From assembly GCF_001889265.1 (NCBI RefSeq), contig NZ_CP018151.1, positions 1,612,001 to 1,676,000 on the forward strand: a stretch of 64,000 nt of DNA, written 5' to 3'. Of this stretch, positions 4,105-63,819 are shown piece by piece. Each line of letters begins with the position of its first letter. The first letter of the stretch is position 1. Position numbers and translations under genes: made by a program. This DNA comes from Microbacterium sp. 1.5R (GTDB lineage Bacteria; Actinomycetota; Actinomycetes; Actinomycetales; Microbacteriaceae). A model generated the notes under the pieces. It was not told the origin of the DNA. It saw only the letters and a list, made by a program, of their open reading frames with translations, and did not search any database.

Positions 4105-4110
4105 GACGTC

Positions 4111-4175: not shown

Positions 4176-4216
4176 AGTCCATCGTGGGCCGAACCGCCAG
4201 CTTCAGGAGACACGCA

Positions 4217-5668: not shown

Positions 5669-5670
5669 CC

Positions 5671-17857: not shown

Positions 17858-17860
17858 GAC

Positions 17861-48107: not shown

Positions 48108-48470
48108 ATGGCAGCGAAAGATGAGCTCGGTAGATCCGGCGAAGAACATGCGGTTCGGTATCTGACCGGCATCGGATATGTGGTCCTCGACCGCAACTGG
48201 CGATGTGCGCAGGGCGAGATCGACATCGTCGCCTGTCGCGGTCACCACCTCGCCATCGTCGAGGTCAAGACACGACGGACGATCTCCCACGGACACCCGT
48301 TCGAGGCCGTGGATTCCCGCAAGATCCGACGACTGTGGCAATTGGCTCATGCGTGGGCGGCCGACCATCCCGAAAAGGCGGTCGGCCTCGTGATCCGGAT
48401 CGAGGCGATCGGGATCATCGGAGCCGACCCGCAGCACAGCACTCTCGAACATCTCGTGGACGTGTCGTGA
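48108..48470 (+). CDS. yraN: YraN family (UPF0102) putative endonuclease
   Basis: A 120-residue protein with the restriction-endonuclease-like fold: GRSGEEHAVRYL, then RNWRCAQGEIDIVACRG and LAIVEVKTRR, giving the E...D...EVK active-site pattern. It sits before comM and dprA, its usual neighbours. Its stop overlaps the comM GTG by three bases. Confidence 0.92.
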   Translation: MAAKDELGRSGEEHAVRYLTGIGYVVLDRNWRCAQGEIDIVACRGHHLAIVEVKTRRTISHGHPFEAVDSRKIRRLWQLAHAWAADHPEKAVGLVIRIEAIGIIGADPQHSTLEHLVDVS

Positions 48471-49996
48471 AGACGGCCCGCACGTGGGCGGTCGCGCTCA
48501 CCGGGGTCGACGGGCACATGGTCGAGGTCGAAGCCGACATCTCGAACCAGACCCCCGACTTCAAGATCATCGGCCTGCCGGACAAAGCACTCGGCGAGGC
48601 GGTTCAGCGGGTTCACAACGCCTGCAAGAACACGCAACTCGATCTTCCGCGCCGGCGCCTCACGGTCAACCTCTCGCCCGCCAGCCTCCCCAAGCAGGGA
48701 GCCGGTTTCGACCTGAGCATCGCGGTCGCCGCTCTCGCGGCAGGGGGAGCGCTGTCGACGCGGTCCATCGCGGGAACGGTGCATCTCGGCGAACTCGGAC
48801 TCGATGGCCGGCTCCGTCCCGTGCCCGGGGTGCTCCCGTCCGTCTTCGCCGCTGCGCGTGCGGGGTTCGACACCGTGATCGTGCCGTGGGGCAACGAGGC
48901 GGAGGCGAGGCTGGTGCCCGGAATCGAGGTTCGCGCAGCAGCGAGTCTTTCGCAGGTCGCCGTCTGGCACGGCGCAGAGATCGACGTGCTCGATGCCGAT
49001 CCGGTCGCCTCGGCGACACTCGCGCCGGAGCACCGCGAGAGGCTGGACCTCGCGGACGTCGTCGGCCAGGACGAGGCGGTCGAGGCTCTGATCGTCGCGG
49101 CAGCAGGAGGCCATCACATGCTGCTCAGCGGCCCGCCAGGCGCAGGTAAGACCATGCTCGCGCGTCGACTCCCCGGCATACTTCCGAGTCTCTCCGACGA
49201 CGAGGCTCTCGAAGTGGCCTCGATCCGCTCACTCACCGGCGACGCTGTGCGAGCTCTCGACGCCACGCCGCCGATGGAGTCGCCTCACCACAGCGCCTCG
49301 GTTGCGGCGCTCGTCGGAGGCGGCACGAGGTCTGTTCGTCCTGGCGCCATCTCTCGCGCGCACAGAGGTGTGCTCTTCCTCGACGAAGCAGCGGAATTCT
49401 CGAGAGTCGCGCTCGACGCACTGCGGCAGCCGCTCGAGTCCGGCGTCATCGAGGTGAGTCGATCGGGCGTCACCGCACAGTTCCCCGCACGCTTCCAACT
49501 GGTCATGGCGCTCAATCCGTGCCCGTGCGGCAATTACGGGGTGCGCGGTGCGGAATGCACATGTCCGTCGTTGGCGATCCGGAGATACTCGACCCGACTC
49601 TCCGGTCCGCTTCGCGACCGGGTCGATATCGAGCTGCATGTCTCGCGCGTGTCTGCTGCTCGGGCCATGATCGGCGACCGTACGGAGGTGACGAGCGAGC
49701 GAGCTCGAGCGAGAGTCATGCAGGCGCGTGAACGGGCGGTCTCGCGGTGGCGGGGGACACCGTGGGGCCGCAACAGCGAAGTTCCGGGCGCCCGATTGAG
49801 GCAACTCGATCTGCGGATCGCCGCAGAGGCAAGGGCGCCACTGGATAGGGCTCTCGAGCGGGGAGCTCTCACTCTTCGCGGCTATGACAGGGTTCTGCGG
49901 CTGGCTTGGACCATGGCGGACCTCGCCGAGGTCGACAGTCCAGGTCGGGAAGAAATAGGACGGGCACTGTTCTTGAAGAGGGGATACCTATCGTGA
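48467..49996 (+). CDS. comM: ComM/YifB family Mg-chelatase-like ATPase
   Basis: A 509-residue AAA+ protein. The N-terminal ChlI-like domain has IIGLPDKALGEAVQRV, and the AAA+ core has Walker A GPPGAGKTMLAR (about residues 222-229) and Walker B GVLFLDEAAEF. Two CXC blocks (NPCPCGNYG and ECTCP) are seen. In Haemophilus and Vibrio ComM is a branch-migration helicase for natural transformation. GTG start at 48467; it is coupled to dprA by a GTGA overlap. Confidence 0.94.
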   Translation: MKTARTWAVALTGVDGHMVEVEADISNQTPDFKIIGLPDKALGEAVQRVHNACKNTQLDLPRRRLTVNLSPASLPKQGAGFDLSIAVAALAAGGALSTRSIAGTVHLGELGLDGRLRPVPGVLPSVFAAARAGFDTVIVPWGNEAEARLVPGIEVRAAASLSQVAVWHGAEIDVLDADPVASATLAPEHRERLDLADVVGQDEAVEALIVAAAGGHHMLLSGPPGAGKTMLARRLPGILPSLSDDEALEVASIRSLTGDAVRALDATPPMESPHHSASVAALVGGGTRSVRPGAISRAHRGVLFLDEAAEFSRVALDALRQPLESGVIEVSRSGVTAQFPARFQLVMALNPCPCGNYGVRGAECTCPSLAIRRYSTRLSGPLRDRVDIELHVSRVSAARAMIGDRTEVTSERARARVMQARERAVSRWRGTPWGRNSEVPGARLRQLDLRIAAEARAPLDRALERGALTLRGYDRVLRLAWTMADLAEVDSPGREEIGRALFLKRGYLS

Positions 49997-50706
49997 TCGA
50001 GTCTCTCAGAGGCGATGCGGCGGCGCGGCGATCGCTGCGACAGGTGCGACCGGTCGATGACCTGGACGAGGCGCTGGCACGAGTGTCGTGGTCAGTCCTC
50101 ACCGAGCCGGGGGACGGAGTCGCCGGCGCGCTCATCGCGGAGCGGGGCGCAGTGACATCACTGGGGCTGGCGATCGGCGGAGGGGCCGCGGCGAGTTCGG
50201 ATGTCAGCGAACGGGCTCTCGCCGAGGGACGAGCCAGGTGGATGGTCCGCGCGGATGCGCGCAGCGTTCTCGATGCGATCCGTGCAGCAGCCGAGGTCGG
50301 CGCTCGGCTGCTTCTGCCGGGGGACGACCTCTGGCCGAGATCTCTCGACGACCTCGGGGTGCATGCGCCGACAGTGCTCTGGGTTCGCGGAGACCCGGCG
50401 CTGCTCACGGCTCCGAGCCGAGTCGCGATCGTGGGCGCGAGGGCGGCCAGCGGTTATGGAGAGATGCTCGCCGGTGACTTCGCCGGCGAGCTCGCAGCCG
50501 CCGGCACGGTCGTCGTATCCGGCGGAGCGTACGGCATCGACGGGGCAGCCCATCGGGCCGCCCTCGGCGTGAGCGGCAAGACCGTAGCCTTCCTCGCCGG
50601 GGGAGTCGATCGCGCGTATCCCCAAGGCCATCAGCAGCTGCTGCGGAGAATCGTGGAGACCGGAGCCGTGGTGAGCGAAGTGCCCTGCGGCACCGCGCCG
50701 ACGAAG

Positions 50707-50727
50707 TGGCGATTCCTCTCACGGAAG
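50707..50727. other. Likely attachment-site junction (attL) within dprA
   Basis: The last native dprA stretch is the GGCGATTCCTCTCACGGAA region encoding FLSR and the next residue. After it the sequence no longer fits the family. A second copy of part of this core should lie at the far phage end, beyond the window, joined to the missing dprA tail. The exact core cannot be set from one end. Confidence 0.55.
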
Positions 50728-50750
50728 CTCAGACGTGTCAAAAAGGTGTG

Positions 50751-50785
50751 GCCTACCCCGCCTCGGAAAACGAAGCGGGGTAGGC
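50751..50785 (-). terminator. Terminator at the end of the phage late operon
   Basis: GCCTACCCCGC (50751-50761) and GCGGGGTAGGC (50775-50785) form an 11-bp stem. On the minus strand it is followed six bases later by five Ts (50740-50744), which makes it the best intrinsic terminator in the window. It stops phage transcription just before dprA. Confidence 0.85.
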
Positions 50786-50791
50786 TGGGTG

Positions 50792-50893
50792 CTAGTTGAA
50801 AAGAATCCAGAAGGTGACGATGTAGGTGATCGGCTGTTCCAGCAGCCGGTTCACCTCGTACAGAATCTGGCTCGTAGCGGTTTTCTCAGGCAT
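50792..50893 (-). CDS. Phage small protein (33 aa) with a hydrophobic C-terminus
   Basis: The protein starts MPEKTATSQILYEVNRLLEQ and ends PITYIVTFWILFN. The ATG has a good ribosome site (GGAGG, spaced by four bases). The C-terminal 13 residues are strongly hydrophobic, so it may insert in the membrane. It is the last gene of the phage late operon. A role in lysis is possible but cannot be shown. An in-frame GTG at 50980 would give a longer form without a ribosome site. Confidence 0.6.
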   Translation of the reverse strand: MPEKTATSQILYEVNRLLEQPITYIVTFWILFN

Positions 50894-50994
50894 GGTGCCT
50901 CCAGTGTTTAGTTGTCCGTAGCCGTTTGCTGCGGTACTTACACCATGCCTGGGAGAATCCGTGGATTGCGAACTCGACACGCCATGAGTTCGTT

Positions 50995-51012
50995 ACCGGT
51001 TGGTTAACCGGT
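50995..51012. repeat. Small inverted repeat after the FnIII tail gene
   Basis: ACCGGTT and AACCGGT pair around GGTT. It follows the stop at 51017 in the direction of transcription. There is no T-run, so it is at most a weak terminator. The 100 bases between it and the 33-aa gene hold no convincing ORF. Confidence 0.4.
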
Positions 51013-51016
51013 CGTG

Positions 51017-51808
51017 TTACGTCGCGGGCACCCAGGCCCCGTTGCGGTAGACCAGGACCTCGGCGGATACCCACTTGCCGGAGCGGTAGACCAGGACCTC
51101 CACCGGCTTCCAGGTGGAGCCACGACGCACGTACGCGCCGCTCAGCGTCTTGAAACCGGTGTCCGTGCTCTTCGGGGCGTACCCCTGCGAGTTGTGCGCG
51201 TAGACGGTTGCGTAGTACTGCGTGCCGGGGGTGAGGCCGGTGATGGTGTGCGAGAGCGTGGAGGGTCCCAGCGGGTAGTCCGTGTAGCCGGACCCATCGG
51301 CGGGCGTCTTCTTGTTGATGCGCAGGAGGTACTGGTCAATGGCCGCGCCGTTGTTGTTCGTGTTCGCGGGCCAGGTGAGCTTCACGCTGGTGGGCGTGAG
51401 GGCGGACGCCACGGGCGCGCCGTTGGCCACGGGCGGCTTCGGGATGCGGGGGAGGTTCACCGATGCGGAGACCGTCACGTTGTCCGCAATGTCGCTGGCT
51501 CCGTCTGCGCCCTTGAATCCGGACACGCTGATGGTCGCGTAGCCGTTGCCGTCGTGACCTACCCAGGTGGAGCCGGACGCGATGAGCACGGCGCTGGTGC
51601 CTCGGAAGTCGAACGCGAACGCGCCGGAGTACCCGTTGCCCGCGATGTTCACGGACCACGGGACATTGGCGGTCAGGTTCCGGGAGACGCCGTTGTAGCA
51701 GTACAGGTACAGCGACCAGTCAACGCGCGAGGAGTTGCCGGACACGGCTCCCAGGTCCACGTTGAGCTGGAGCGTGCCCGCTCCGGCTCCGGTGTTGAAG
51801 GCAACCAC
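51017..51808 (-). CDS. Phage tail tip protein with fibronectin type III domain
   Basis: A 263-residue protein. The first 115 residues are beta-rich and phage-like (ANVPWSVNIAGNGYSGAFAF). Residues about 125-215 form a fibronectin III domain with PTSVKLTWPANTNNNG, ITGLTPGTQYYATVYAHN and GYAPKS. The C-terminus has short repeats of the form VLVYRSGKWV and VLVYRNGAWV. Such modules bind sugars or extend adhesins at the tail tip. GTG start at 51808. It follows a 65-aa protein by three bases. Confidence 0.78.
   Translation of the reverse strand: MVAFNTGAGAGTLQLNVDLGAVSGNSSRVDWSLYLYCYNGVSRNLTANVPWSVNIAGNGYSGAFAFDFRGTSAVLIASGSTWVGHDGNGYATISVSGFKGADGASDIADNVTVSASVNLPRIPKPPVANGAPVASALTPTSVKLTWPANTNNNGAAIDQYLLRINKKTPADGSGYTDYPLGPSTLSHTITGLTPGTQYYATVYAHNSQGYAPKSTDTGFKTLSGAYVRRGSTWKPVEVLVYRSGKWVSAEVLVYRNGAWVPAT
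51044..51100 (-). repeat. 39-bp tandem repeat in the tail tip gene
   Basis: GCGGTAGACCAGGACCTC occurs at 51044-51061 and again at 51083-51100, 39 bases (13 codons) apart. It encodes the repeated EVLVYR(S/N)G.W motif at the protein C-terminus. Repeats of this kind in adhesin tips can change in number by recombination. Confidence 0.75.
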
Positions 51809-51811
51809 GGG

Positions 51812-52009
51812 TCACCCCTTCAGCCACACGTCGCCCTCCTGCGGGGACGTAGGGGCGGTGGGTGATGCGGTGGACTTGCGTGGGTGGTTCTTCATGAGAC
51901 GCCCGATGAAGTCGCGGGTCTCATTGATGAGGGTTTCAAGCGTGTTGGCGGGCGCGGTACCGGGTACCAGGGGTAGTCCGGCTGCTGCTGCTTCGTCTCC
52001 TGTAGCCAT
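51812..52009 (-). CDS. Small phage protein (65 aa) between tail genes
   Basis: No family is recognised. The sequence runs from MATGDEAAAAGLPLVPGTAP to a middle amphipathic segment (LETLINETRDFIGRLMKNH) and a Pro/Ser/Thr-rich end with GDVWLKG. The GDVWLKG ending resembles linker or collar segments in phage tail proteins. It is nine bases after the large tail gene. Confidence 0.6.
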   Translation of the reverse strand: MATGDEAAAAGLPLVPGTAPANTLETLINETRDFIGRLMKNHPRKSTASPTAPTSPQEGDVWLKG

Positions 52010-52018
52010 GGTGTTTCC

Positions 52019-54802
52019 TTAGAGTGAGTCGATGGACCCGGTGAGTCCGTCGATGGTGGTGTTGAGTAGGTCGATTGCGCCCACGGGTGTCTCACGCAGA
52101 CCGGCAGAGCCGATGGACATAAGCCCGTTGGTGAGTTCCCACTGGACGCGGTTGATGGTTCCGAGTTGCGGCGAGGTTCCGGGAAGGTCGATCTGGACCT
52201 CCTGCCCGGGACGTACGGCGTAGTCGGTCTCCACGGTCACGTCCTGGACGCGGCCTAGACCCTGGGTCTTCTTCAGGTGGGCGGCGGCAACGCCGGGACC
52301 GGGATACTCGCGGTCGAACTCCAGGAGCTTGACCTTGCCTGCGACTCCAGCGGCGTCCACCTTCTCCCGGCTCACGCCGTTCACGTCGGTCCAGGTGAAG
52401 CGAGCGACCACGCCGGTCACGCCGTTGTCCTCGTCGTCGGCGTCCATGGTGTCGGTGCCCTCCACGGCGTTGTCAGCGCGAGCGGAGAAGCGTCCGGGTA
52501 CGGACCAGTCGATGGGGTTGATGAGCCACCAGCGGCGCTGCTCATCGCAGAAGAGGCGAAGGCCGGTACCACCAGCGGATGCCACCAGCGGCTTCAGGAA
52601 GTCCCAGGCGGTCTGTCCGGCCTTCCATGTGAAGAGTTCCGGGCGGCGCTCCTGGATTGCCGTGCGCTCGCTGGTCGAGACGTGCGCCTGGTCGTTCCAG
52701 GTGTAGGTGTACAGGTCCGGGCGGACGACGGTTCCGCCGTCGAAGTAGGAGTGATCCAGCGTGCCCTCTGTGACCATGACTCCGGTTACGTCCACGGTGT
52801 TGCCAGCCGCGTAGGACGTGGTGGGAAGGAACGGGAAGACACCCATACGCACTGCGCCGGGGTATGCCTGGAAGACGTAGGACACACGGGTCCAGGTGTT
52901 CGCGGTGGTGGTGAAGTTGGGTCCGTGGAGGTTGCGTCCAGCGGTCGCGTTCGCAGAGTTGCGCTGGGTGACGATGAGTCGCGCGGTCTTCGCGACCGAT
53001 GTACGGATGTACATGGATACGCGATAGAGCTGCTTCTCACGGATCGCCACGTTGAGCGACCCACCCAGGACTGTGCCGTCATCGCCACCGTTGAAGTACG
53101 GGCCTCGGTCTGCGCCCGCGTTCATCGTGGCGCGGACGGCGGAGGCTAGGGACGTGTTAGCCGGGAAGGTTCCCGTGGTCAGGCGCGAGATTGTGCCCTG
53201 CGTGTTCGACCAGCCGGAGAGGTCCAGACCAGCGGTCGGGTTGGTCATGAGGTTGGTCGCGTCCCAGGACGCCGGGATAGCGGCGTTGGTGGTTCCGGGC
53301 TGGAGGGCAGCGCCAGGGATCGCCTTATTCAGGACGTAGTTGATGAGGTTGCGCAGGTTCTCTTCGTGCGTACGCGGCGTCGAGTCATCCGCGATAGGTG
53401 CCCAGCGCTCCAGCATCCACTCATCGGACGCCAGGCTCAGGGTGATCTTCTTGGAGTCGTGCGAGACCTTGCGCGAGCGAAGCGCGAGGTCCGCCGTGAT
53501 GCCGGGTGCGGGCACCCAGTCCACGCGCTCCAGGGTGCGAGTCTCCAGGACACTCGTGGAGGCGTCGGCGGTACCCAGCCAGCGGGTCTGCGTGAACTCG
53601 TCGTTAGACGTAGCGCCGTCGTAGTAGTCGCGGGCAGCGTCAGCCGCTTCGAACATGGTTCCGGTGAGGTCGAAGAAGTCACCTACCTGTGCGGAGGCGC
53701 GTCCGTACTGGATGGTGGCATATGCCGCGTTGGCGGGTGCCACGTCCGTGAAGCTCATCCGCTCGAAGGCGCTACCCAGAGTGATGTTGGGTGATGCGGC
53801 CTCGTAGATGAGGCTTCCCCCGGAGGTACGCCACTGGATGAAGAGGCGGACGGCGACACCAGCGGGCGCGCCACGCATCCACCCGGAGAGGGTGTACGGC
53901 TGACCGGGCACTACGGCGGCAGTCGTGGCGGCAGCACGGAACCAGGTTCCGGTGGTCGTGTACGTGATGCGTGCGTACCCCGGGGTCACGGCCTCGAAGT
54001 CTGGGATAGCTCCAGCCGGGAGCGTGGCGGCGCGGGTGATGGTCGCTGCTGCGCCGCCTCCAGCCGCTGCGGTCCAGGTGTTCGTGTTCGTGCGGAACGT
54101 CGGGTTCGCGATGAGGTTGCGGCGCTGCTCGACCCAGGGCGTGTACACCTTGACGTGTTCGCCTTCGGAGGTCGCGGCGAGCGTGACGCGCTGTCCGGGC
54201 TTGATGGAATCCAGGAGACCTTCAGACGTAAAGGGGACCTCGACGGACGCCTCGGCGTACGGGTAGCGCGAGGAGTCCAGCGTCAGGTCACCCTCCGAGA
54301 GCTGTAGGTCTGCGGTGGTGCTGACGATTGCGGGAGACGTGAGAGTGAAGTCATCGAACTGGACGAACCAGTCCCAGGTCTGTCCGGGGTCGAACGTGGG
54401 AGCGTCCACCTTCATGACCACTTCAAAGCTGGAGCTGGTCGGCGTGAAGGTGTTCGTGAGCTGGACCCAGGAGGTTGTCCCCATGGTCCGCGAGGACGTG
54501 TTGAGCCAGACGGTTGTGTCGGCGTCATTGCTCCACAGCCACACAGACGCCGTGTAGGTGCGTCCGGGGGTGAGCTGGGTGAAGGTGCGCTTCAGCGTGC
54601 CCTCTGCGCGTCCGTCCGCGTAGAAGCCGTAGACGCCAGAGCGGTAGGCCCACTCGACCGCTCCGGAGTATCCATCCGTGGCGGCTGTCCAGGTTGGGTC
54701 CGGGGTTTCCCAGCCGTAGCTGTACGAGTACGCGGGCGCGATGACTACAGGCTCCGTCACGGTGACGGTAGCCGTTGCGTTGGGGTTGTTCTCGAAGGCC
54801 AT
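52019..54802 (-). CDS. Large minor tail protein with three repeated jelly-roll-like modules
   Basis: A 927-residue protein, the largest visible phage gene. Three similar modules are seen at about 27-165, 225-400 and 525-690. The second and third open with NLIANPTFRTNTNTW and NLMTNPTAGLDLSGW and close with YYDGATSND and YFDGGTVVRPD. These look like carbohydrate-binding jelly rolls. The C-terminal part (from WDFLKPLVASAGGTGLRLF) looks like a tail-baseplate domain with DREYPGPGVAAAHL. It is likely the host receptor-binding or baseplate hub protein. Confidence 0.8.
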   Translation of the reverse strand: MAFENNPNATATVTVTEPVVIAPAYSYSYGWETPDPTWTAATDGYSGAVEWAYRSGVYGFYADGRAEGTLKRTFTQLTPGRTYTASVWLWSNDADTTVWLNTSSRTMGTTSWVQLTNTFTPTSSSFEVVMKVDAPTFDPGQTWDWFVQFDDFTLTSPAIVSTTADLQLSEGDLTLDSSRYPYAEASVEVPFTSEGLLDSIKPGQRVTLAATSEGEHVKVYTPWVEQRRNLIANPTFRTNTNTWTAAAGGGAAATITRAATLPAGAIPDFEAVTPGYARITYTTTGTWFRAAATTAAVVPGQPYTLSGWMRGAPAGVAVRLFIQWRTSGGSLIYEAASPNITLGSAFERMSFTDVAPANAAYATIQYGRASAQVGDFFDLTGTMFEAADAARDYYDGATSNDEFTQTRWLGTADASTSVLETRTLERVDWVPAPGITADLALRSRKVSHDSKKITLSLASDEWMLERWAPIADDSTPRTHEENLRNLINYVLNKAIPGAALQPGTTNAAIPASWDATNLMTNPTAGLDLSGWSNTQGTISRLTTGTFPANTSLASAVRATMNAGADRGPYFNGGDDGTVLGGSLNVAIREKQLYRVSMYIRTSVAKTARLIVTQRNSANATAGRNLHGPNFTTTANTWTRVSYVFQAYPGAVRMGVFPFLPTTSYAAGNTVDVTGVMVTEGTLDHSYFDGGTVVRPDLYTYTWNDQAHVSTSERTAIQERRPELFTWKAGQTAWDFLKPLVASAGGTGLRLFCDEQRRWWLINPIDWSVPGRFSARADNAVEGTDTMDADDEDNGVTGVVARFTWTDVNGVSREKVDAAGVAGKVKLLEFDREYPGPGVAAAHLKKTQGLGRVQDVTVETDYAVRPGQEVQIDLPGTSPQLGTINRVQWELTNGLMSIGSAGLRETPVGAIDLLNTTIDGLTGSIDSL

Positions 54803-54804
54803 GC

Positions 54805-55170
54805 TCAGACCTCCTGGTATCCGACGCGGACGTACCAGACGGTCTGCTCTTCATCGATCGCTTCCGCCTCGATGTCCAGGGAGCCGTCCAGGACAAAGGT
54901 CATACCCAGCTCGGTCACGTCGCCGGACGTGTAGGTGAAGCTGGTCTCCTCGGCGTACAGGGCGTACGCAGCGAAGGCCTCGGCGCGGTCGGTGTAGACG
55001 GTCACCAGGTCCCCAGAGCGCGGACGGGGCGCGATGAAGGACACGCCGATAGAGCCGTCCAGAAGGTCGTGGATGACGTTCCGGGACTGACGGCTGGCGT
55101 CATATCCGGCCACGGCGAGCGGGCTGGTGGAGCCTGCGCCGTTCGATGCGGTGATGCTGTGATTAGACAA
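54805..55170 (-). CDS. Phage tail protein (121 aa), probably distal tail
   Basis: A 121-residue beta-rich protein with SFIAPRPRSGDLVTVYTDRA. Position between the tape measure and the large tail protein is where distal tail proteins lie. Its start overlaps the tape measure stop by eight bases. The family was not recognised directly. Confidence 0.6.
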   Translation of the reverse strand: MSNHSITASNGAGSTSPLAVAGYDASRQSRNVIHDLLDGSIGVSFIAPRPRSGDLVTVYTDRAEAFAAYALYAEETSFTYTSGDVTELGMTFVLDGSLDIEAEAIDEEQTVWYVRVGYQEV

Positions 55171-56842
55171 GCTGATCGCCTCCGTTTCGCTTGTAGACGG
55201 TGATGTAGAGAGGGCGGGATTCCTGGTTGCGGCGCATGGTGTTGATTGCGGAGTCAGCGCGGGATACGTCGGCGCGGACGTTGATGGTGGCGTGGCGGTC
55301 CCGCGCGAGCGCGTCCAGGTCGTTCTTGGCGTCGGCCTTGCCGGAGGTCTTGACCTTGATCTCGGCGGTACGGTCGCGGCTCACGTCCTTCAGGTCCGCC
55401 TCAGCGGCTCCTGTCTCGGCCTGAATCTCGACCTCGGCGGACGGGTTGAAGTTCTCGTCAAAGCCGACGGTGGCGTCAGCTCCAGCGGTGGAGCCTCCGT
55501 CCGAGAGGGCAACGCGGATACGCTCCTTACCCTCTTCACCGGCTGACTGGTAGGACGCGGCGATGGAGTTGCGGGCCTCTTCGGGGAGCGCCAGGAAGTT
55601 CTCCCACTCAGCGGGGGTGAGCTTCATCCCCTCCAGGTTCGACTTGTACTGGTCTGCGAGCGCGCGGGTCTCCTCGACGTAGGTAAGCCAGGTGTCCACG
55701 TTGAACGCGGCATCGTCGGCGGTGGCCTTGTCGTAGGCGGCGCTGCGCATCGAGTCGTATGCGGAGAGTGCAGACGCCTCTACGGCCTCCTGCGCGCCCT
55801 CGATCCGGGCGGCGGCTTCCTCTTCGGCGTCGGCGCGCTCTAGGGCGGCGTCTACGCCCGCTGCGGACTGACGCTGCGCGGACTCGGTGGTGGCGTCACG
55901 AAGCTTCAGCTCCTCGTCCAGCGCCTCCAGGACATCCTTGGAACCGGCAAGCTGCTCCTGTAGCGCCTCGTAGCGTGCGCGGTCGGCGTCGGTAGCTTCA
56001 CCGGACGCAGCGGTGCGCTCCGTGATCGCGTCCATCTCGTCCAGGATTGAGCGGCGCGAGTCCTCGATTGCGTCTCGGTAGTCCTCGACCGCGCCCGTGG
56101 AGGACTTCAGTACGTCGCCTACCTCCTCGGCAGAGCGGCCCATCTTGTCCAGACCGTCTGTCCAGTCTTCGAGCTTGGACGGGTCCTCATCCCAGAAGGC
56201 GCGGAAGTCACTGGACTTGGCCTCTTCGAGTTCGCGGATGCGTTCGACCAGAACGCCCGCGCTGGTGATCCAGCGGTCAGTGGAGACGCCCGCCTCAACG
56301 GCGTCAGCGGCGTACTCCACAGCCTTCATGCGCAGCTCTTCAGCAGCCTCAGCCGCCTTCTGGAACTCGCCTACCGCGATACCGATTCCGGCAGCGATAG
56401 CGAGACCCGCGAGCAGACCGGCAGGACCGAAGCCCGCAAACGCGTTAGCCGCGACCTCCTGGAAGGCGTCGATGATGGACTCGGCGGAGCCGTCGAAGGA
56501 TGCGGCGGACTCCTTGGCGGTGCTCTTGGCCTCGTCCCCAAACTCCTCGATGCCGTCCTCAGCGCCCTTCATGCCGCGCTTAGCATCGTCTCCGGCGTCC
56601 TTCGCTGCGAAGCCCAGCTTCTTCAGGTCCTTCCGGGCCTCGTCCAGCTCGTCGCCCAGCTCCTCGGTAGCCTTGCTCGCCTTCTCCAGGTCGCGCTTCA
56701 GGTCCGTACCGGCGTCGGTATCACCCAGCTTCTTTAGCGCCTTCTCGGCGTCCTCGATGGGTTCAACCAGGCCGTTGTTGATTTCGCGCTGAATACCGCT
56801 GGTGTCAACACCAACGGGAATCTTGATTTCACCGCGTGCCAT
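55163..56842 (-). CDS. Tape measure protein (short)
   Basis: A 559-residue protein with long Ala/Glu/Asp/Lys-rich coiled-coil stretches on both sides of a hydrophobic segment (about 132-158, AGLLAGLAIAAGIGIAVG). This is the layout of siphovirus tape measure proteins, which set tail length. The size is small for the family, so the tail should be short. No separate overlapping pair of tail-assembly chaperone genes is found upstream. The ATG overlaps the upstream stop. Confidence 0.82.
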   Translation of the reverse strand: MARGEIKIPVGVDTSGIQREINNGLVEPIEDAEKALKKLGDTDAGTDLKRDLEKASKATEELGDELDEARKDLKKLGFAAKDAGDDAKRGMKGAEDGIEEFGDEAKSTAKESAASFDGSAESIIDAFQEVAANAFAGFGPAGLLAGLAIAAGIGIAVGEFQKAAEAAEELRMKAVEYAADAVEAGVSTDRWITSAGVLVERIRELEEAKSSDFRAFWDEDPSKLEDWTDGLDKMGRSAEEVGDVLKSSTGAVEDYRDAIEDSRRSILDEMDAITERTAASGEATDADRARYEALQEQLAGSKDVLEALDEELKLRDATTESAQRQSAAGVDAALERADAEEEAAARIEGAQEAVEASALSAYDSMRSAAYDKATADDAAFNVDTWLTYVEETRALADQYKSNLEGMKLTPAEWENFLALPEEARNSIAASYQSAGEEGKERIRVALSDGGSTAGADATVGFDENFNPSAEVEIQAETGAAEADLKDVSRDRTAEIKVKTSGKADAKNDLDALARDRHATINVRADVSRADSAINTMRRNQESRPLYITVYKRNGGDQLV

Positions 56843-57348
56843 TAGCTGACCTCCTCGATTGCTTCATGGATGGATCGGCGGGCGGTGCTCACCCAGAGCG
56901 ATGCCAGCCGGGGAATGGACTCCCGCGCTGCGGGGTAGACGACGTTTCCGCCTCGGCGGTTGGGACCGAACGTGTTACCCGCCGTGCGGGTGTACGCCTT
57001 GCCCTTCTTCGACTTGGAGGCGATGGGCTTGGACGCGTTCATGCCGAACTCGGCAGAGCGCGCCAGACGGTCCACAGGGGTGCCACTGGAGAGCCGCCCC
57101 TTGCCACCGGACTTCAGGGTGACGTTGCGGGCGGTCACAGAGACATCGGCAGAGTTGACCAGGACCCGCTGCTGGACGCGCGTAGCTGCGCGACCACGGG
57201 TCTCTTCAAACCAAATGGGCTTAGCTTCAGCCTTGGTCTGCTGACCGATCTGCTTCTTGATGTCTGCTGGTACCGCCCGCATCGCCAGCGCTAGGTCACG
57301 TAGCGGACTGTCGATGAGGAGCGAGATAGACCCGGCTCCTCGTGCCAC
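56842..57348 (-). CDS. HK97 gp10-like tail/neck protein
   Basis: A 168-residue basic protein with LRDLALAMRAVPADIKKQIG and a C-terminal helix (SLWVSTARRSIHEAIEEV). This is the shape of HK97 gp10-type tail-completion proteins. Its position after the tail tube gene and before the tape measure is unusual, since gp10 usually comes before the tail tube. It is therefore a tentative call. Confidence 0.55.
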   Translation of the reverse strand: MARGAGSISLLIDSPLRDLALAMRAVPADIKKQIGQQTKAEAKPIWFEETRGRAATRVQQRVLVNSADVSVTARNVTLKSGGKGRLSSGTPVDRLARSAEFGMNASKPIASKSKKGKAYTRTAGNTFGPNRRGGNVVYPAARESIPRLASLWVSTARRSIHEAIEEVS

Positions 57349-57350
57349 GG

Positions 57351-57749
57351 TCAGACCGAAACGGTAGGAACGGGCTTGCCGGATGCAACGGGCAGCACAA
57401 CCGTGCTGACACCTACGGCCTTGGTAGCTCCACCGATCTTCGGTGCAACCAGGGTGACGGTCTGCGTCCAGGTCGTGGGTCCGTCAACGATCTTCAGGAC
57501 AACGTTGGTGCCCTCTTCGTTGAACATCTTTCGAGCAAGTCCGGTAGCGCCGAAGTCCTGGAAGACGTTGAGCGTGACGCTCCAACCGGACTGACCAGCC
57601 AGGCGCGTGACCTTGCCGGATACGTCGGTGACCTCAGCCGTTACGGGCGTGGGGTCAATCGAGTAGTCCTGAATGTGAGCGGTGTACTCATCGGTACCGA
57701 TAGAGATGGATGCTGTGATTAGCCGAATGTTGGCGGTGATTGCGGGCAT
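57351..57749 (-). CDS. Major tail (tube) protein
   Basis: A 132-residue beta-rich protein: ISIGTDEYTAHIQDYSIDP, then VTDVSGKVTRLAGQSGWSV and VLKIVDGPTTWTQTVTL. The small all-beta sequence and its place just after the tail terminator suggest a tail tube protein. It is shorter than many, in line with the compact phage. Confidence 0.65.
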   Translation of the reverse strand: MPAITANIRLITASISIGTDEYTAHIQDYSIDPTPVTAEVTDVSGKVTRLAGQSGWSVTLNVFQDFGATGLARKMFNEEGTNVVLKIVDGPTTWTQTVTLVAPKIGGATKAVGVSTVVLPVASGKPVPTVSV

Positions 57750-57752
57750 GGG

Positions 57753-58193
57753 TTACTCCTCCTCGGGAGCGTCCGGCTCGGGGTCCGGCTCAGGTGTGGG
57801 TGGTGTGTTAGTTGCCAGGAAGGCAATGGGGATGCTGTAGCCGGACTCGCCAGCTTCGAAGCGGAGGCGGGTAGCGTCGGGACCCCACTTCAGGTCCGGT
57901 GACGCATCGAGAATCAGAAGCAGCGTGGATAGCTCCTCAGTCGCGTGGCGCAGACCCTTCACGGCGTCCGTCTCCGGGGTGGAGAGGATGAGCATGAACG
58001 CGACCCAGACCCAGCCCTCAGGGAGTTCCTGGTCATCGGTCTTGGCTGACACGTCCATTTGCTCGTAGCTCAGGACCACGCCGGAGGTCTTGGACCCCAG
58101 CGTCTCGACGTTGGCCACGCGCCAGTTAGACGGACACTCCGCCTTCAGGAACGCCTCCACGTCGGCGGAAACGGTGGCTAGCTCAGAAGACAT
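57753..58193 (-). CDS. Tail terminator protein
   Basis: A 146-residue protein with SADVEAFLKAECPSNWRVAN at the start and ATEELSTLLLILDASPDLKW in the middle, ending in a Pro/Glu-rich tail. The layout matches HK97 gp9/lambda gpU-like tail terminators. It overlaps the connector gene upstream by 11 bases. Confidence 0.6.
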   Translation of the reverse strand: MSSELATVSADVEAFLKAECPSNWRVANVETLGSKTSGVVLSYEQMDVSAKTDDQELPEGWVWVAFMLILSTPETDAVKGLRHATEELSTLLLILDASPDLKWGPDATRLRFEAGESGYSIPIAFLATNTPPTPEPDPEPDAPEEE

Positions 58194-58560
58194 TCGCCAC
58201 CCCCGACGTAGGACGGATGATGCTGCGAATGGTCTTGTCCAGCGGGCGTGGGGTGAAGGAATATCCCTCAGACCCCACGCTGCTGTCCTGCTGTGCGCGT
58301 CCGGCGTTCCAGAGGTTTGTGGCCTGCTGAAGCTGCGCGTAGACGAACCGTGGCGCGGGGTCTAGGTCCCATGCCGCCATGTGCTCCCAGCGCTCGCTGG
58401 AGTCCAGCCCGGGGTAGGGCGGTGCGAACTCCAGGACCTGCTCACGCGCGATGTCGAGAAGGAAGCCGCAAAGCTCCTGGTTCTCGGTGGGCGCGTCAGG
58501 CCACGCCGCGAGCAGACGGTCTGCCTGCTCGGGCGTGGTGGCTGAGTACCAGGTGGTCAC
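58183..58560 (-). CDS. Head-tail connector protein
   Basis: A 125-residue helical protein with ATTPEQADRLLAAWPDAP and QLCGFLLDIAREQVLEFAPP-like text, then LQQATNLWNAGRAQ. These fit the head-completion (gp6-type) connectors of actinophages. GTG start at 58560, 11 bases after the capsid gene stop. Confidence 0.65.
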   Translation of the reverse strand: MTTWYSATTPEQADRLLAAWPDAPTENQELCGFLLDIAREQVLEFAPPYPGLDSSERWEHMAAWDLDPAPRFVYAQLQQATNLWNAGRAQQDSSVGSEGYSFTPRPLDKTIRSIIRPTSGVANVF

Positions 58561-58571
58561 GGGTGCGGTCC

Positions 58572-60290
58572 TTACGGCTTGGTACCGATGAGGGCCAGCG
58601 ACTCGGGACGAACCACGAAGGTCTCCAGGAACGCGACCAGCGCACGGTCAACACCGAACTTCGCGACCTCTAGGGCGTTGATGTCGGCGTGTACCTCGCG
58701 GAACTCGACGGCGTTCTTCGCGCCAACGATCATCTGAGGAGCGGTGGCTACCGTTCCGGTGAAGTAGGACTGATCGGCCTTGACCACGCGGACCTTGCCG
58801 GTGGATGCCTCTCCCGTGCCGACGCCAACGGCGAACTCGACGAACTCGGGAACCTTGTCCTTCGGCGTGAAGAGGAGCTGGTTCCACGCAACGGGGTTCA
58901 CGATTGCGAAGGACGCATCGTCTCCGTTGTCCGAAACCAGGTCGATGCCCTGGATGAGCTGGCCCATTGCAGCGGGGTACTCAGCGGGGTACGTGCCGGG
59001 TGCAACCAGGCGCGAGAGTGCAGCGCCGCTACCGCGCGATGCAACGGTGAAGAGGTCCTTCAGTGCGGCCTCGTCAAGCTGCTTCGCTCCGGAGTCAACT
59101 ACGCCCTCCCAGAACGCAGCGAGGATATCCGCGCCACCCTCCAGGTACTGCCACTCCAGTGCAACGTCAGCGGCGAAACCGAACTTGCGGAGGGTAGAGG
59201 TGTAGGTGGAAGTCGAAGCGGAACCGGTGGGAAGCTCAACCTTCTGAGCCTGGTTCGTGACCTCGGCAACCAGAGCGGTGCCCTGGTCGATCTTCCAGCC
59301 CTTGCGGCCACCCAGAGCGATGCCGCCCTGAATGTGGTTAGCCAGGCTGATGTAGCGCTGCTGGTAGCGCTTGCCCTGCCAGAGCTTGCCCGCGAACGTG
59401 GGCGGGATAGCGCCGGACGTGACGTGGGCGGGCGTGGTGATGTCAGCCAGCGCAGCCAGGAAGGACTCCTGGTCAGCCGTCTGGGTAGACGTGCTGGACT
59501 TGATCTGGGACATTGCGGAGTAGACCGCGTTGAGGTCTACGTCCTTGGCTGCGGGCGAGCTAGCCAGCAGCGTTGCCGGGACTGCCCCGGCCTCATTGGT
59601 GTCAGACACTGTGAACTCCTTACGTTCGTCTGTGTTGTCCTCAGCCGGGGTGGCTGTAGGCGTGGGTTCCGGGGCGTCGGCCTCGGAAAGCTGGTTGTTG
59701 ATGAGTTCCTGAGCGGCGGCTAGATGCGCCTGGACCTCATCCAGGAAGGCGTTGTATCCGTCCGGGTCCACGTCGGGGTCCGGCACGTCTTCGCCCTCAG
59801 CGAGCGAGAAGAGACCGGCAGACGCGAACGCGCCCTCCTTGACCACGGCGGCTCCAGTGAGGCGAGCGAATGCGGCCTTGGTCTTGTCGGCGGCGTTGCG
59901 GACGATGCCCGCAACCTCGGCGCTGAGCTTGCGAACGGGGTTCGCCAGGTAGGCGTCACCCTCGTCCGTGTCGGCAATCGCGAACTCGGCTTCCACGCCG
60001 CGCTCTGTGACCTGGAGCGAGACCGCGCGTCCGATGGGGTTGAAGCGGTCGTGCTCGACGTTGAGCGTGATGACGGAGTGATCGCGGGGGAGCTTGATGG
60101 ACTCGGCGGAGAACTCGATTGCCTCATTGCCGGATGCGTTCTTGCGGCTCAGCTCACCGAACGGAAGGAGAAGGCCGCGAATGTTGCGGGTGTTCTCGAC
60201 GCGCTCGAAGAGTCCGGCTTCCTGTGTATCTAGCTCGGAAGCCACAAGGCTAAATTCAGCCGACACGTCGGCCTGGGTCTGGTCAGTCAT
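58572..60290 (-). CDS. Fused prohead protease and major capsid protein
   Basis: A 572-residue protein. Residues 30-160 form an HK97-type (S78) prohead protease with the catalytic His80 in LNVEHDRFNPIG and Ser123 in VRKLSAEVAG. A helix and an acidic Pro/Thr linker (180-235) resemble a scaffold or delta segment. From about 240 to the end the protein is a HK97-fold major capsid protein, with GGRKGWKIDQGTALVAEV and the C-terminal EFREVHADINALEVAKFG. Most phages keep these as two genes; here they are one continuous frame without any internal stop. Confidence 0.85.
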   Translation of the reverse strand: MTDQTQADVSAEFSLVASELDTQEAGLFERVENTRNIRGLLLPFGELSRKNASGNEAIEFSAESIKLPRDHSVITLNVEHDRFNPIGRAVSLQVTERGVEAEFAIADTDEGDAYLANPVRKLSAEVAGIVRNAADKTKAAFARLTGAAVVKEGAFASAGLFSLAEGEDVPDPDVDPDGYNAFLDEVQAHLAAAQELINNQLSEADAPEPTPTATPAEDNTDERKEFTVSDTNEAGAVPATLLASSPAAKDVDLNAVYSAMSQIKSSTSTQTADQESFLAALADITTPAHVTSGAIPPTFAGKLWQGKRYQQRYISLANHIQGGIALGGRKGWKIDQGTALVAEVTNQAQKVELPTGSASTSTYTSTLRKFGFAADVALEWQYLEGGADILAAFWEGVVDSGAKQLDEAALKDLFTVASRGSGAALSRLVAPGTYPAEYPAAMGQLIQGIDLVSDNGDDASFAIVNPVAWNQLLFTPKDKVPEFVEFAVGVGTGEASTGKVRVVKADQSYFTGTVATAPQMIVGAKNAVEFREVHADINALEVAKFGVDRALVAFLETFVVRPESLALIGTKP

Positions 60291-60295
60291 AGGGG

Positions 60296-61396
60296 TTATT
60301 CCTCGGTTGCGGGAGGCTCAGGCGCTTCGGCGGTTACGGGTGACTCAGCAGAGAGCTGGTCAGGGGTTGGGACCATGAAGTCCGAGAGGTCGGCGCGGAC
60401 CTCGGCGTTGGGTCCCACAACGTCATCCAGCGAGAGGCGCGCAAGGATCGCGTACGCGAAGCGCGAGGACCCGAAGACCCACAGCTCGGACGCCTTGCCG
60501 TTCTCGTTGGTGTAGCTCATCTGCCCGGAGCTACCGCCCTCCTTGCCCGCCTCCAGGAAGGACGCAGGGAGTCCGGCGTGCTGCGCCAGCTCTAGACGCA
60601 GGGAGTTTTTCGCGTTCTCGAAGAGGTCCACGGTCTGCCCGTTGTGATCGATGACCTGCATATAGCTCGGGGTCACGGCAACGGCATGCTTGTTGCGGTT
60701 GGCGGCGTAGGACTTCGCGAGAGCTTCACGCTCTTCGCTAGTCATCTCGTCGTACTTCACATCGGTGATGTGTAGCTCGGTCGCGGCGGGCGGAGTGTCG
60801 ATGCGCTTCTGGCGTGCCAGCTCCAGCTTGCGGGCCTGACGCACGGAGTCGATGCCGTCAACCAGGAGGCCGTTGGACCCCAGTGGAATGTAAATAGCGT
60901 GCTGGCGGTAGATAGCGGGGATGACATCGGAAATGACCACGCGGCCTGTCTCGCGGTCAATCTCCCAGTGCTCGGCGGGTACGTGGATGAAGTCGCGGAC
61001 GGTGGAGCCGAAGCTGTCCAGCTCTGCGCCTAGGACGGCAGCGCCGTGCAGGAAGAGGTCCTTCACCGTGCCGGTCCAGCAGATGTAACGGGGGATACCG
61101 GAGTCAGTATTAGAGACCCAGTAGGGCTGCTCGGCTGCTTCTTCGCCGTCAACGTAGACGGACATCTTCAGCGGAGCTACCAGCGCCTGGTGTGCCTGGA
61201 GTGCGCGGTTGACCTCGGGAACGCGAAGGGCAATCTCAGGAGTGACCAGCTCAACGGGGAAGTCCCACAGCTCGCCCACGATTGCGGGCATGAGGTTATT
61301 GGGTTCAGCCCAAGGAGAGGCGAGCTGCGTCGGCAGCGCCTGCACCTTTAGCGGCGTGCCCCATAGGGCATGTCCGATGGTATTGAAGAAACCCAA
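60296..61396 (-). CDS. Portal protein
   Basis: A 366-residue portal (HK97/SPP1 type). The N-terminus has MGFFNTIGHALWGTPLKVQA; the middle has EHWEIDRETGRVVISDVIPA and a helical crown region with FLEAGKEGGSSGQMSYTNEN, which is typical of actinophage portals. It ends in an acidic Pro/Glu tail. It follows the terminase gene after a 138-base gap. Confidence 0.85.
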   Translation of the reverse strand: MGFFNTIGHALWGTPLKVQALPTQLASPWAEPNNLMPAIVGELWDFPVELVTPEIALRVPEVNRALQAHQALVAPLKMSVYVDGEEAAEQPYWVSNTDSGIPRYICWTGTVKDLFLHGAAVLGAELDSFGSTVRDFIHVPAEHWEIDRETGRVVISDVIPAIYRQHAIYIPLGSNGLLVDGIDSVRQARKLELARQKRIDTPPAATELHITDVKYDEMTSEEREALAKSYAANRNKHAVAVTPSYMQVIDHNGQTVDLFENAKNSLRLELAQHAGLPASFLEAGKEGGSSGQMSYTNENGKASELWVFGSSRFAYAILARLSLDDVVGPNAEVRADLSDFMVPTPDQLSAESPVTAEAPEPPATEE

Positions 61397-61415
61397 GTTG
61401 ATATTCCTTTTGTGC

Positions 61416-61463
61416 CCCGCCCCGGAGCTAGGAAGGAACGTGTAAAACTTGCTCCGGGGCGGG
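61416..61463 (-). promoter_or_regulatory. Stem-loop and AT-rich leader before the portal gene
   Basis: CCCGCCCCGGAGC (61416-61428) and GCTCCGGGGCGGG (61451-61463) pair perfectly (13 bp) around a 22-base loop. The rest of the 138-base gap (61397-61534) is AT-rich, with TAGACT and GATAAT boxes on the minus strand that could start the head and tail operon. The stem lies just ahead of the portal start, so it could end terminase transcription or control the late genes. Confidence 0.6.
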
Positions 61464-61534
61464 TAGTCTATTTAATGCTTTCCCAGTAACTATTATCCCA
61501 GATATGTCATAGGGGGTGTTTTTGGCGCTATGTA

Positions 61535-63061
61535 CTATGCGGCGTCGAAGAAGTCAATGCGCACAGGTGCGGCTGCACGCTCGTCTTCCAGCGCATAAGC
61601 CGCGAGAGCTGCGGCCTCAATGGGCGTGATATCCGTGGAATCAGGCGCGCCCTTTGGACGCCCGAAGGCCCACGAATTCGTATTACCCATCTGGCGCTTT
61701 ACGGCAATCTCGACCGCAGAGTCAAGCGGGGCTTGCGAATAGTGACGCAGCTTGTCTTCTCGCAGGAGCGTCATGAAGTGCACAGAGGCGCGCTTGACGT
61801 CTGCAAAAAGCATGGGACGCTCACTCACGCGGGGGGACGCCGTGCGCAGCTCCTTCATGACGTTCTCGGTGGCGGGGCTGTACGAGTCGTACGTCACCGC
61901 GCGGCCCAGCTTGCGGGCGGTCTGAATGACCTGCTTAGCGAAGCCCTTCACGCTGTCCTGGTGGTGGAGGACGGCGACGTGAGTACGCCCGTCCTTGTCC
62001 TTCCACGCCTGCACCATAGAGGCCCAGTCCGCGTCAGGGTGCACGAAGATGCAGAGGGCAGAGACCTTGGGAGCCTCGGTCCAGTCCGGCAGCGCAGAGG
62101 CCAGCCAGAGCGGCTGCGGGATGAGCGCAGTATTAGAGCCTTCTGCGCCGAAGAGGTTGAAGTACTCGCGGGTGTACTTCTTCACGCCCAGGCGTTCGTA
62201 GCTGTTCTCGATGCGGTCCAGGGTGGTGAGGGTCCCGATACCGGGGTGCATCGCCAGCGTCAGCTCACGGGCACGGGCGCGCGGGTGGTCGGCGTCGGGT
62301 ACCCACGCCTCCAGCTCCTCAGGGTCGGTGTCGTCCGCGAGCATGTACGCCACGCGTCCGGCGCGCTCATCGTGCAGCGTCTTCCAGAACTCGGAGCCGT
62401 CACGGTAGTCACCGGCTGTACCGGCAAGGATGAGCTGGCCCTCAGGGCGCGTGTCGAAGGCGGGGATGACCGCCCCAATGATGTCCTCCCAGCGCTCAGG
62501 GCTGGACTCTCCCGCCTCGTCCAGGAGGAGGGTGTCATACGCGCCGGAGCGCACGGCGTCACCGTCCGGCGAGAGCACGGAGAGGACCGAACCGTTGGGG
62601 AACTCCACGCGCTCGGAGCCGTTGGAGCGGATGAGCTTGACGGGGCGCGCGTCATCCTCGGGCCAGCGGCGCGCAATGGGTCCATACACGTCCAGGCGGT
62701 AGCGCTCTGAGGACTTCTTCTGGGTAGTGAGGAGCGTGAACGCGGCGAAGTGGACGGGACGCAGGTAGCAGCGACCCAGCAGAATGCAGAATAGGGTGGT
62801 GGTCTTTGCGCTTCGACGCGGCATAATGACCGCATTCATGAGCGCGCCACCATTGAGCATGTCCGCAATTCGCAGCATCTGCGGGTGCACGGTCGCGAGA
62901 ATCCCCAGCAGCCACGCGCCTACCAGGAACTCGTCCCGGCTCTGCTGCGTGGTCGTCAGCTCGGACTGGTACAGCGGTGCAATTCCTGAGTCGCGCTTGG
63001 CTAGCCACTCAGACTCCTCGCGGAGCGGGTGATTGGTTACCTCATCCGGTAGGGCTGTCAT
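61535..63061 (-). CDS. Terminase large subunit
   Basis: A 508-residue packaging motor. It has a Walker A-type segment MPRRSAKTTTLFCILLG (degenerate GKT to AKT), Walker B DTLLLDEAGES and a C-terminal nuclease domain with acidic residues (ALCIFVHPDADWASMVQ). ATG at 63061 is preferred over one at 63100 because the latter lies deep in the 50-aa gene upstream. The two genes overlap by 20 bases. No small terminase gene is recognised. Confidence 0.88.
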   Translation of the reverse strand: MTALPDEVTNHPLREESEWLAKRDSGIAPLYQSELTTTQQSRDEFLVGAWLLGILATVHPQMLRIADMLNGGALMNAVIMPRRSAKTTTLFCILLGRCYLRPVHFAAFTLLTTQKKSSERYRLDVYGPIARRWPEDDARPVKLIRSNGSERVEFPNGSVLSVLSPDGDAVRSGAYDTLLLDEAGESSPERWEDIIGAVIPAFDTRPEGQLILAGTAGDYRDGSEFWKTLHDERAGRVAYMLADDTDPEELEAWVPDADHPRARARELTLAMHPGIGTLTTLDRIENSYERLGVKKYTREYFNLFGAEGSNTALIPQPLWLASALPDWTEAPKVSALCIFVHPDADWASMVQAWKDKDGRTHVAVLHHQDSVKGFAKQVIQTARKLGRAVTYDSYSPATENVMKELRTASPRVSERPMLFADVKRASVHFMTLLREDKLRHYSQAPLDSAVEIAVKRQMGNTNSWAFGRPKGAPDSTDITPIEAAALAAYALEDERAAAPVRIDFFDAA

Positions 63062-63194
63062 CGTCCATCCGTTCCAGAAGGTTTGCGGACTGAAGTTCAA
63101 TCGCCCGCGCGATGCGGTCCTCTGCGATTCCGGAGGGCGCGTACAGACGTACCTGTGCGGTTGCGCAGAGAGTTGCGAGGTCGGACACGTTCAT
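63042..63194 (-). CDS. Small phage protein (50 aa) upstream of terminase
   Basis: An ORF that runs MNVSDLATLCATAQVRLYAP, SGIAEDRIARAIELQSANLL and ends RMDDDSPTG. It is helical and acidic at the end. An in-frame ATG five codons earlier is an alternative. Its end overlaps the terminase start, which suggests coupling. It may be a remnant or very small packaging partner; no family is recognised. Confidence 0.55.
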   Translation of the reverse strand: MNVSDLATLCATAQVRLYAPSGIAEDRIARAIELQSANLLERMDDDSPTG

Positions 63195-63281
63195 GTGATT
63201 TCCATTCATGTGAATACGGGGAGAGAGACGCCTGTTAGAGCCGAAGGCGGGGATTGCTCTGCCGTGTCTTAAAAAACTCGG

Positions 63282-63404
63282 TCAGCGTGCGAATATCTCG
63301 GTGAAGTGTGCGAGGATCGCGTCACGGTCTAGCTGCTTGGCATCTACGTATCGCTGCTGCTCAGCCAGCTTCATGAAGAGGTCGGTTGCTTCATCGGGTG
63401 TCAT
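63282..63404 (-). CDS. Small phage protein (40 aa)
   Basis: The ORF runs MTPDEATDLFMKLAEQQRYV to LDRDAILAHFTEIFAR. Its ATG overlaps the stop of the 71-aa gene by four bases, a strong sign of real translation. It is helical. A stretch of six Ts (63271-63276 on the opposite strand sense) follows the stop, with no clear stem before it. Confidence 0.6.
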   Translation of the reverse strand: MTPDEATDLFMKLAEQQRYVDAKQLDRDAILAHFTEIFAR

Positions 63405-63616
63405 GCCTTGTCCTTCGGTGCGTAGTCCATGACCTGCGCCCACGCCTCTCGCATCGCACGGCTTAGCTGCTCACGGAAGGCCAGCTCACGGTCCATCCAG
63501 CGCTGCGCCCACGCCACAACCTCGGCGTCTGCTGCGCCTCGCAGCCGGTCAGGTCCGTGCTCGGCAGCGATGTGACGGGCAAGGTCTACCTGTTCGGTGA
63601 AGTAGTCGCGGCTCAC
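63401..63616 (-). CDS. Small phage protein (71 aa)
   Basis: A 71-residue protein, GTG start at 63616: SRDYFTEQVDLARHIAAEHG, then AEVVAWAQRWMDRELAFREQ. It is helical, with no signal peptide and no known family. It overlaps the next upstream gene by four bases, so it is part of a coupled run of small genes before terminase. Confidence 0.65.
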   Translation of the reverse strand: MSRDYFTEQVDLARHIAAEHGPDRLRGAADAEVVAWAQRWMDRELAFREQLSRAMREAWAQVMDYAPKDKA

Positions 63617-63819
63617 TCCTCTACCTCCTCGGGCAGGGCAGCAGCCAGCTCCTCGCGCTCTGTCTCCAGTGCGTCAAGCTGTGCAGCCGATGCGTCTAGC
63701 TGGGTCTGTAGGTTGGTGAGCTGTGACTCATAGCTGGTGAGTACCTGCGTCTCCTGCTCGATGCGTACATCTAGCTCGGTGATGCGTGCCTCAATGGCTG
63801 CGCGTACGGCGGCGTTCAT
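63613..63819 (-). CDS. Small coiled-coil phage protein (68 aa)
   Basis: The sequence is nearly all coiled coil, with IEARITELDVRIEQETQVLT and TNLQTQLDASAAQLDALETE, ending EEVEE. The heptad pattern suggests a self-associating or partner-binding protein. Its GTG/ATG start overlaps the upstream gene by four bases. Confidence 0.65.
   Translation of the reverse strand: MNAAVRAAIEARITELDVRIEQETQVLTSYESQLTNLQTQLDASAAQLDALETEREELAAALPEEVEE

Follow-up and report, generated by a model that had tools for sequence, protein, structure and literature searches.

The window, the whole stretch of 64,000 nucleotides that was analysed, corresponds to C1:1612001-1676000 of a complete, single-contig Microbacterium chromosome (3,620,317 bases; 3.62 Mb). 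It contains a full-length comM gene, followed directly by a dprA frame that starts at 49993 and ends at 50799 (Table 1). The frame is normal through W-R-F-L and runs thereafter through foreign DNA, where it encodes basic residues and crosses a strong, terminator-like hairpin; a simple terminator scan did not list this hairpin. A profile search located the missing 3′ part of dprA outside the window, at C1:1680702-1681130, collinear with the 5′ part and followed by a XerC/D-type gene (assigned by Pfam only; termed xerC). The two halves of the gene thus flank the element, as expected for an insertion by a large serine recombinase (LSR) into a competence gene, and the distance from crossover to crossover is 17,998 bp.

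Table 1. Features of the comM-dprA locus and of the inserted element (window positions unless marked C1 or L002).
Feature	Position	Strand	Basis or remark
comM, full length, directly upstream of dprA	48203..49996	+	Pfam ChlI, Mg_chelatase and Mg_chelatase_C over the protein
5′ part of dprA	49993..50718	+	ends after W-R-F-L; last host base 50718
Inferred crossover dinucleotide TC of attL	50719..50720	+	comparison of nine LSR insertions at the codon
Prophage portion inside the window	50719..64000	.	part of the 17,998-bp element, which runs on to L002:4716
Element DNA forming the chimeric tail of the DprA frame, to the stop codon	50721..50799	+	frame reading
Strong hairpin, terminator-like	50751..50785	-	-33.6 kcal/mol, z -6.4; 3′ of the element's tail operon
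Minor tail protein gene	51017..51808	-	phrog_6977; PensacolaC28 minor tail, 36%
927-aa tail protein gene	52019..54802	-	phrog_14138; PensacolaC28 gene 10
Tape measure protein gene	55163..56842	-	PensacolaC28 tape measure, 54% over 563 aligned positions
Major tail, tail terminator and head-tail adaptor genes	57351..58560	-	PensacolaC28 relatives; phrog_4574 major tail protein
Major capsid and protease fusion gene	58572..60290	-	phrog_2263; PensacolaC28
Portal gene	60296..61396	-	PensacolaC28 portal, 34%; no PHROG match
Terminase large subunit gene	61535..63100	-	phrog_9; PensacolaC28 terminase, 37%
3′ part of dprA	C1:1680719-1681172 (L002:4719-5172)	same as 5′ part	outside the window

The element resembles tiny actinobacterial siphophages such as Microbacterium phage PensacolaC28 (PP978844.1, 16.7 kb). 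In particular, the head and tail genes of the two follow one another in the same sequence (terminase, portal, capsid-protease, adaptor, terminator, major tail, tape measure, minor tail) at 30-67% amino acid identity, and a comparison of the element's capsid protein with 50,697 phage records gave 13 matches, each to a Gordonia, Arthrobacter or Microbacterium phage of 14.6-17.1 kb. In contrast, the PensacolaC28 annotation lists tyrosine integrase genes and an endolysin, whereas the window's element carries an LSR and a primase, together with an HNH-like gene. The LSR has an open reading frame of 455 aa that combines Resolvase N-terminal and Recombinase domains (PF00239, 1.7e-20; PF07508, 1.5e-08) within one long protein, as LSRs do, and its gene starts about 15 bp from attR. 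The PensacolaC28 endolysin, expected after the tail genes, had no match in the element at an E value of 0.01; the element may therefore be defective, or it may use an unrecognised or unrelated lysis gene. Separately, the tape measure region (55166-56842) is 77% identical to PensacolaC28 at the DNA level over about 436 bp, and the rest gave no megablast match.

Attachment site and integration model

The sequence-only reading had proposed that a prophage interrupts dprA and removes its conserved C-terminus, that the normal frame changes to a basic tail passing through a phage terminator, and that comM is intact just upstream. These proposals hold: the 3′ part of dprA lies 17,998 bp downstream, next to the LSR gene; the Pfam DNA_processg_A match of the 5′ part covers only profile positions 5-148 of 212; host sequence gives way to element DNA that crosses the hairpin; and comM is full length by its Pfam domains. 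It had also suggested looking beyond the 64 kb for the rest of dprA, joined to a core repeat, GATTCCTCTCACG. The gene part is there (C1:1680702-1681172), but the joined repeat is absent, and the junctions share instead an LSR-type dinucleotide TC together with GATTC. A long direct repeat at the element's ends was rejected, as GATTCCTCTCACGNAA has a single match in the genome with up to one mismatch allowed, and within 121 kb it is not covered by any further copy of at least 11 bp. The sequence common to both junctions is GATTC plus the inferred TC, whose attR partner is at L002:4717-4718; a short shared core of this kind, rather than a long repeat, is what an LSR leaves.

For nine LSR insertions at the same codon, both host flanks and both element ends were joined in silico. 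All nine host joins are in frame and give [KR][WF]RFL[SQA]RNR[LI]; in the window's genome the halves join into an intact WRFLSRNR, the restored frame that active lysogeny calls for. The core is TC, CA or GC, varying with the host codon, and its position was deduced from the agreement of attL and attR. The inverted repeat in the attP arms has a p value of 0.01 or less in five of the nine elements, judged against shuffles that preserve base composition only, and the window's attP has such inverted-repeat arms (18/36, p about 0.001).

The best explanation, and a highly probable one, is LSR-mediated prophage integration into an attachment site within dprA. An 18-kb prophage of the tiny-siphophage type would have integrated through its own LSR, crossing over in the codon that follows W-R-F-L, where the conserved [SQA]-R-N-R motif begins. 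For such elements the landing site, shared across the family, would most likely be a deeply conserved motif within a competence gene that is itself dispensable, and the loss of DprA would at least be tolerated, perhaps even to the element's advantage. What can be read directly in the sequences is the split gene with its two junctions, the recombinase gene beside it, the empty site after joining and the same-codon recurrence in many species. The window's LSR probably recognises the motif with TC as its crossover, and excision would restore dprA. Against this model, the attP inverted repeat is not significant in four of the nine elements, and one LSR nested in the clade of these recombinases (L020) is located elsewhere. 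An assembly error, or a short DprA typical of the species, is extremely improbable and found no supporting point: the halves are collinear on one contig, the same architecture recurs in many genomes, and relatives whose 5′ part is 96-98% identical have a whole DprA of 393 aa, which rules out the short form. For example, P0124 (393 aa) is 98% identical over 91% of the query, and P0125 (Microbacterium sp. 4-7) and P0126 are whole at 96% identity.

Insertions in dprA and comM across the family

A full-length DprA was searched in 366 genomes of the genus, with matches in 362 and none in four; genomes with weak or multiple matches (21 and 80) were searched again, and selected stretches were read. 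At least 17 of the 366 genomes have a dprA broken at one of three sites; the inserts are LSR elements, a tyrosine-recombinase island or recombinase-bearing transposons. The count is a lower bound because it leaves out weak matches in low-completeness or fragmented genomes (G070, G154, G238, G247, G254, G265, G270, G272, G284, G294, G299 and G329), the four genomes with no match, and single-match genomes with a second piece below threshold. Also left out were genomes with dprA broken and no large insert (G111, G225, G286, G364, G203, G300 and G228), and G230, where the 3′ part begins at residue 277-278 and a 5′ part was not found.

Site A (WRFL|RNR) is split in ten genomes: the window's own (G000), G080, G084, G103, G132, G214, G216, G249, G259 and G311. 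The recombinase is an LSR in nine of them; the tenth, G103, carries a tyrosine recombinase with a Fic-domain protein at the same codon, so the site is not LSR-specific. G071 has a decayed site-A insertion: dprA stops at site A, its 3′ part is missing, and only the C-terminal part of an LSR, 43-44% identical to the window's, lies between dprA and xerC. In the G071 stretch that was read (L252, G071:C5:2142500-2162499, at 16900-19550), comM is recognisable only as its last 31 residues. Site B (residue 150, before VAIVGARA) is split in five genomes (G057, G151, G156, G275 and G302), with G156 represented by a 3′ junction alone on its contig. One tyrosine recombinase family (TnA) occurs in all five loci; the four with readable inserts have a ~850-aa partner (TnB) as well. 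Two of these four carry metal-type cargo: a multicopper oxidase in G057 and, on visual inspection, genes of ArsR-like and MFS type in G275. Elements pairing a tyrosine recombinase with an ~850-aa partner were seen at loci L146, L147, L148, L245 and L249. Site C (NTAG|HAA, residue ~277) is split in G052, whose halves lie about 119 kb apart.

Among the 120 listed homologues of the window's DprA fragment, P0131, P0212 and P0214 end at site A, while P0123 (97% identical to the fragment), P0129, P0132 and P0218 end at site C; P0158 is a partial record. Beyond site C, the different DprAs P0123 and P0218 continue into the same foreign tail, which would fit a single element type having hit two species. 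Many genomes of the genus also encode a second DprA-like protein on other contigs or at other positions (e.g. G084:C2:145057-145956), which matches about residues 25-330 of the query at 45-55% identity, without the C-terminal part; the solved DprA-like antitoxin ShosA matches DprA as well.

From a search of the genus for LSRs, 90 loci were examined (30 best and 60 further; L127 repeats the L034 gene), 25 of which adjoin dprA or comM and 65 of which do not, in a set that was drawn with the dprA-targeting LSR and is hence skewed (22 of the 30 best adjoin these genes versus 3 of the 60 others). The 25 loci comprise nine at dprA site A, one at dprA site C, nine near comM residue 563, three near comM residue 392 (Walker B) and three near comM residue 170, where the comM cases stem from the LSR-centred searches and a few fetched loci. 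In G132, one LSR abuts comM and another splits dprA. G346, suspected of a dprA insertion, was found instead to have an insert of about 8 kb that splits comM at Walker B.

In a tree of 87 LSRs (three fragments were set aside), the nine site-A LSRs fall in one clade (support 100/99) together with L020 (G178). The comM-563 LSRs form one side of a branch (86/94) and the comM-392 LSRs another (100/100), the comM-170 LSRs require two changes, and the LSR at dprA site C stands separate; several end branches are long, and the midpoint root serves for drawing only. At least six LSR site choices, in addition to two tyrosine-recombinase types, are thus aimed at one operon.

Across the family, the LSR profile A1 matched 59 of 398 family genomes at an E value of 1e-40, and 30 loci were taken, 27 of them from other genera. 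Six of these 27 lie in dprA site A (in six genera), three in comM and 18 beside neither gene. On viral contigs, some of which copy genomes of the genus, the 3′ part of dprA stands beside an LSR in 4 of 34 loci and comM in one. Among 29 listed relatives in the genome collection, dprA stands beside an LSR only in four Microbacterium records: Microbacterium sp. SMR1 (G132), cf332 (G311), Au-Mic1 (G249) and M. kunmingense (G084). A 16,991-bp viral contig (L189), perhaps a free phage genome, carries an internal LSR closest to the comM-563 type with no piece of comM or dprA adjoining it.

Overall, the same codon is used in ten of the 366 genus genomes, in one decayed case and in six other genera, and such recurrence in independent genomes is what LSR insertion into a competence gene would produce. 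The sequence-only reading had suggested dprA as an attachment site and a search of related strains for other insertions; related strains do carry them, at three sites, and dprA as a true, recurrent attachment site is well supported by these sequence comparisons.

The cargo of the site-A elements varies. The window's type of head and tail module is present in six of the nine LSR elements (G000, G214, G249, G084, G080 and G259), while G311 and G132 have another small-phage module, which in G132 shows fewer structural matches and is accompanied by a TIR-domain gene. The G216 element has GmrSD-type and HEPN-domain genes and, in the five proteins scanned by Pfam, no phage structural family. The same site-A LSR accompanied by differing cargo indicates that attachment specificity travels between element types. 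The GmrSD-type, HEPN, Fic and TIR genes in dprA elements look like defence or toxin-type cargo (L144 of G216, 3636-5862; L145 of G103; L136 of G132, 1654-2640).

Consequences for DprA and explanations of the pattern

The insertion removes from DprA the RNR motif, 64 of the 212 Rossmann-domain profile positions and the winged-helix domain, and the break falls within the region aligned to the solved DprA structures 3maj, 3uqz and 5mll. With its Rossmann fold incomplete and no winged-helix domain, the 5′ fragment is probably inactive. It is doubtful, judging from the genome, whether this loss matters in the window's strain. All that is found of its comEC (G000:C1:2096973-2097533 and flanks; L244) is a frame of 506-538 aa in which about 225 aa close to the N-terminus are missing and the reading frame shifts, whereas the nearest homologue, P0003 (763 aa), which is 99% identical where the two overlap, is whole. 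With comEC broken, a restored dprA is not expected to bring back DNA uptake in this strain.

This bears on a reversible switch, whereby the prophage would excise under some condition and restore dprA without killing the cell. The in-frame joining of the host halves in all nine insertions, in silico, and the open LSR frame speak for such a switch. However, active lysogeny requires the restored gene to act in a working pathway, which for DNA uptake is not expected here given the broken comEC; no excision factor was identified in the element; and G071, which has lost the 3′ part of dprA and most of its LSR, indicates that such an insertion can become permanent. A switch is therefore unlikely.

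Why elements accumulate in comM-dprA has two competing explanations. They may be selected to land there, as a broken transformation system would shield them from removal by recombination with imported DNA. This sabotage, which we consider a serious possibility though short of an even chance, is consistent with the three sites in dprA and three in comM, the number of LSR site choices and tyrosine-recombinase types that the tree and site survey imply, and the LSR elements in both genes of G132; it also agrees with the enrichment of LSR targets in competence genes reported in the main text of PMC10083194 and with the curing argument in PMC12637031. However, the LSR set came from a dprA-targeting query and, since the two genes of the operon are conserved and can probably be dispensed with, site conservation alone could suffice to explain the pattern. 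The conserved codons of a dispensable gene would then be a neutral landing pad, a good and widely shared attachment site, and we give this explanation a chance close to even. Site A encodes one of the best conserved motifs of DprA, one comM site is Walker B, and the site-A LSR serves different types of cargo, all of which fit neutrality; the concentration of unrelated recombinases on one operon argues against it, as does the enrichment for competence genes as a class in the main text of PMC10083194.

We tentatively propose that comM-dprA in Microbacteriaceae may be a convergent conflict site, where recombinases for different conserved motifs (three in dprA and three in comM) were gained separately by phages, by defence islands and by cargo transposons because broken transformation protects these integrated elements from curing, which would make dprA, and not only comM, a standing target. 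If the pattern reflects selection, one family provides a natural, many-fold repeated test of transformation sabotage by mobile elements. If it is neutral, it accounts for the recurring short DprA annotations in the family and still yields LSRs with a defined protein-coding attachment motif.

Comparison with known systems

The sequence-only reading likened this insertion to phage insertions in comK. The comK prophage of Listeria reportedly excises reversibly (active lysogeny), and it too is a prophage in a DNA-uptake gene with a serine integrase; for the window's insertion, reversible excision is hypothetical, and the strain's comEC is broken. The comparison is valid as a concept only. The site-B TnA/TnB elements, for their part, may resemble Tn554.

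The general phenomenon is of a published kind. Durrant et al. 2022 (PMC10083194) state in their main text that LSR elements target competence genes, comM above all, and there, too, the site at which an LSR element splits the conserved competence gene is fixed; dprA was not found in that main text, in contrast to the present case, though the supplement may list it. Insertions in comYC, ssbB, pilQ and comM, and the argument that broken transformation prevents curing, are presented in PMC12637031 and PMC11472951. In the literature searched, whose scope excluded supplements, no report of a prophage in dprA was found, and dprA as a recurrent, multi-site target was not found in print. The TnsF elements (Tn6022 and Tsy), which insert at the Walker B motif of comM according to PMC10293859, belong to another recombinase class and do not involve dprA, but they parallel the present insertions: in comM, the gene next to dprA, elements of unrelated kinds have converged on one conserved motif, the same motif where three of our LSRs are located.
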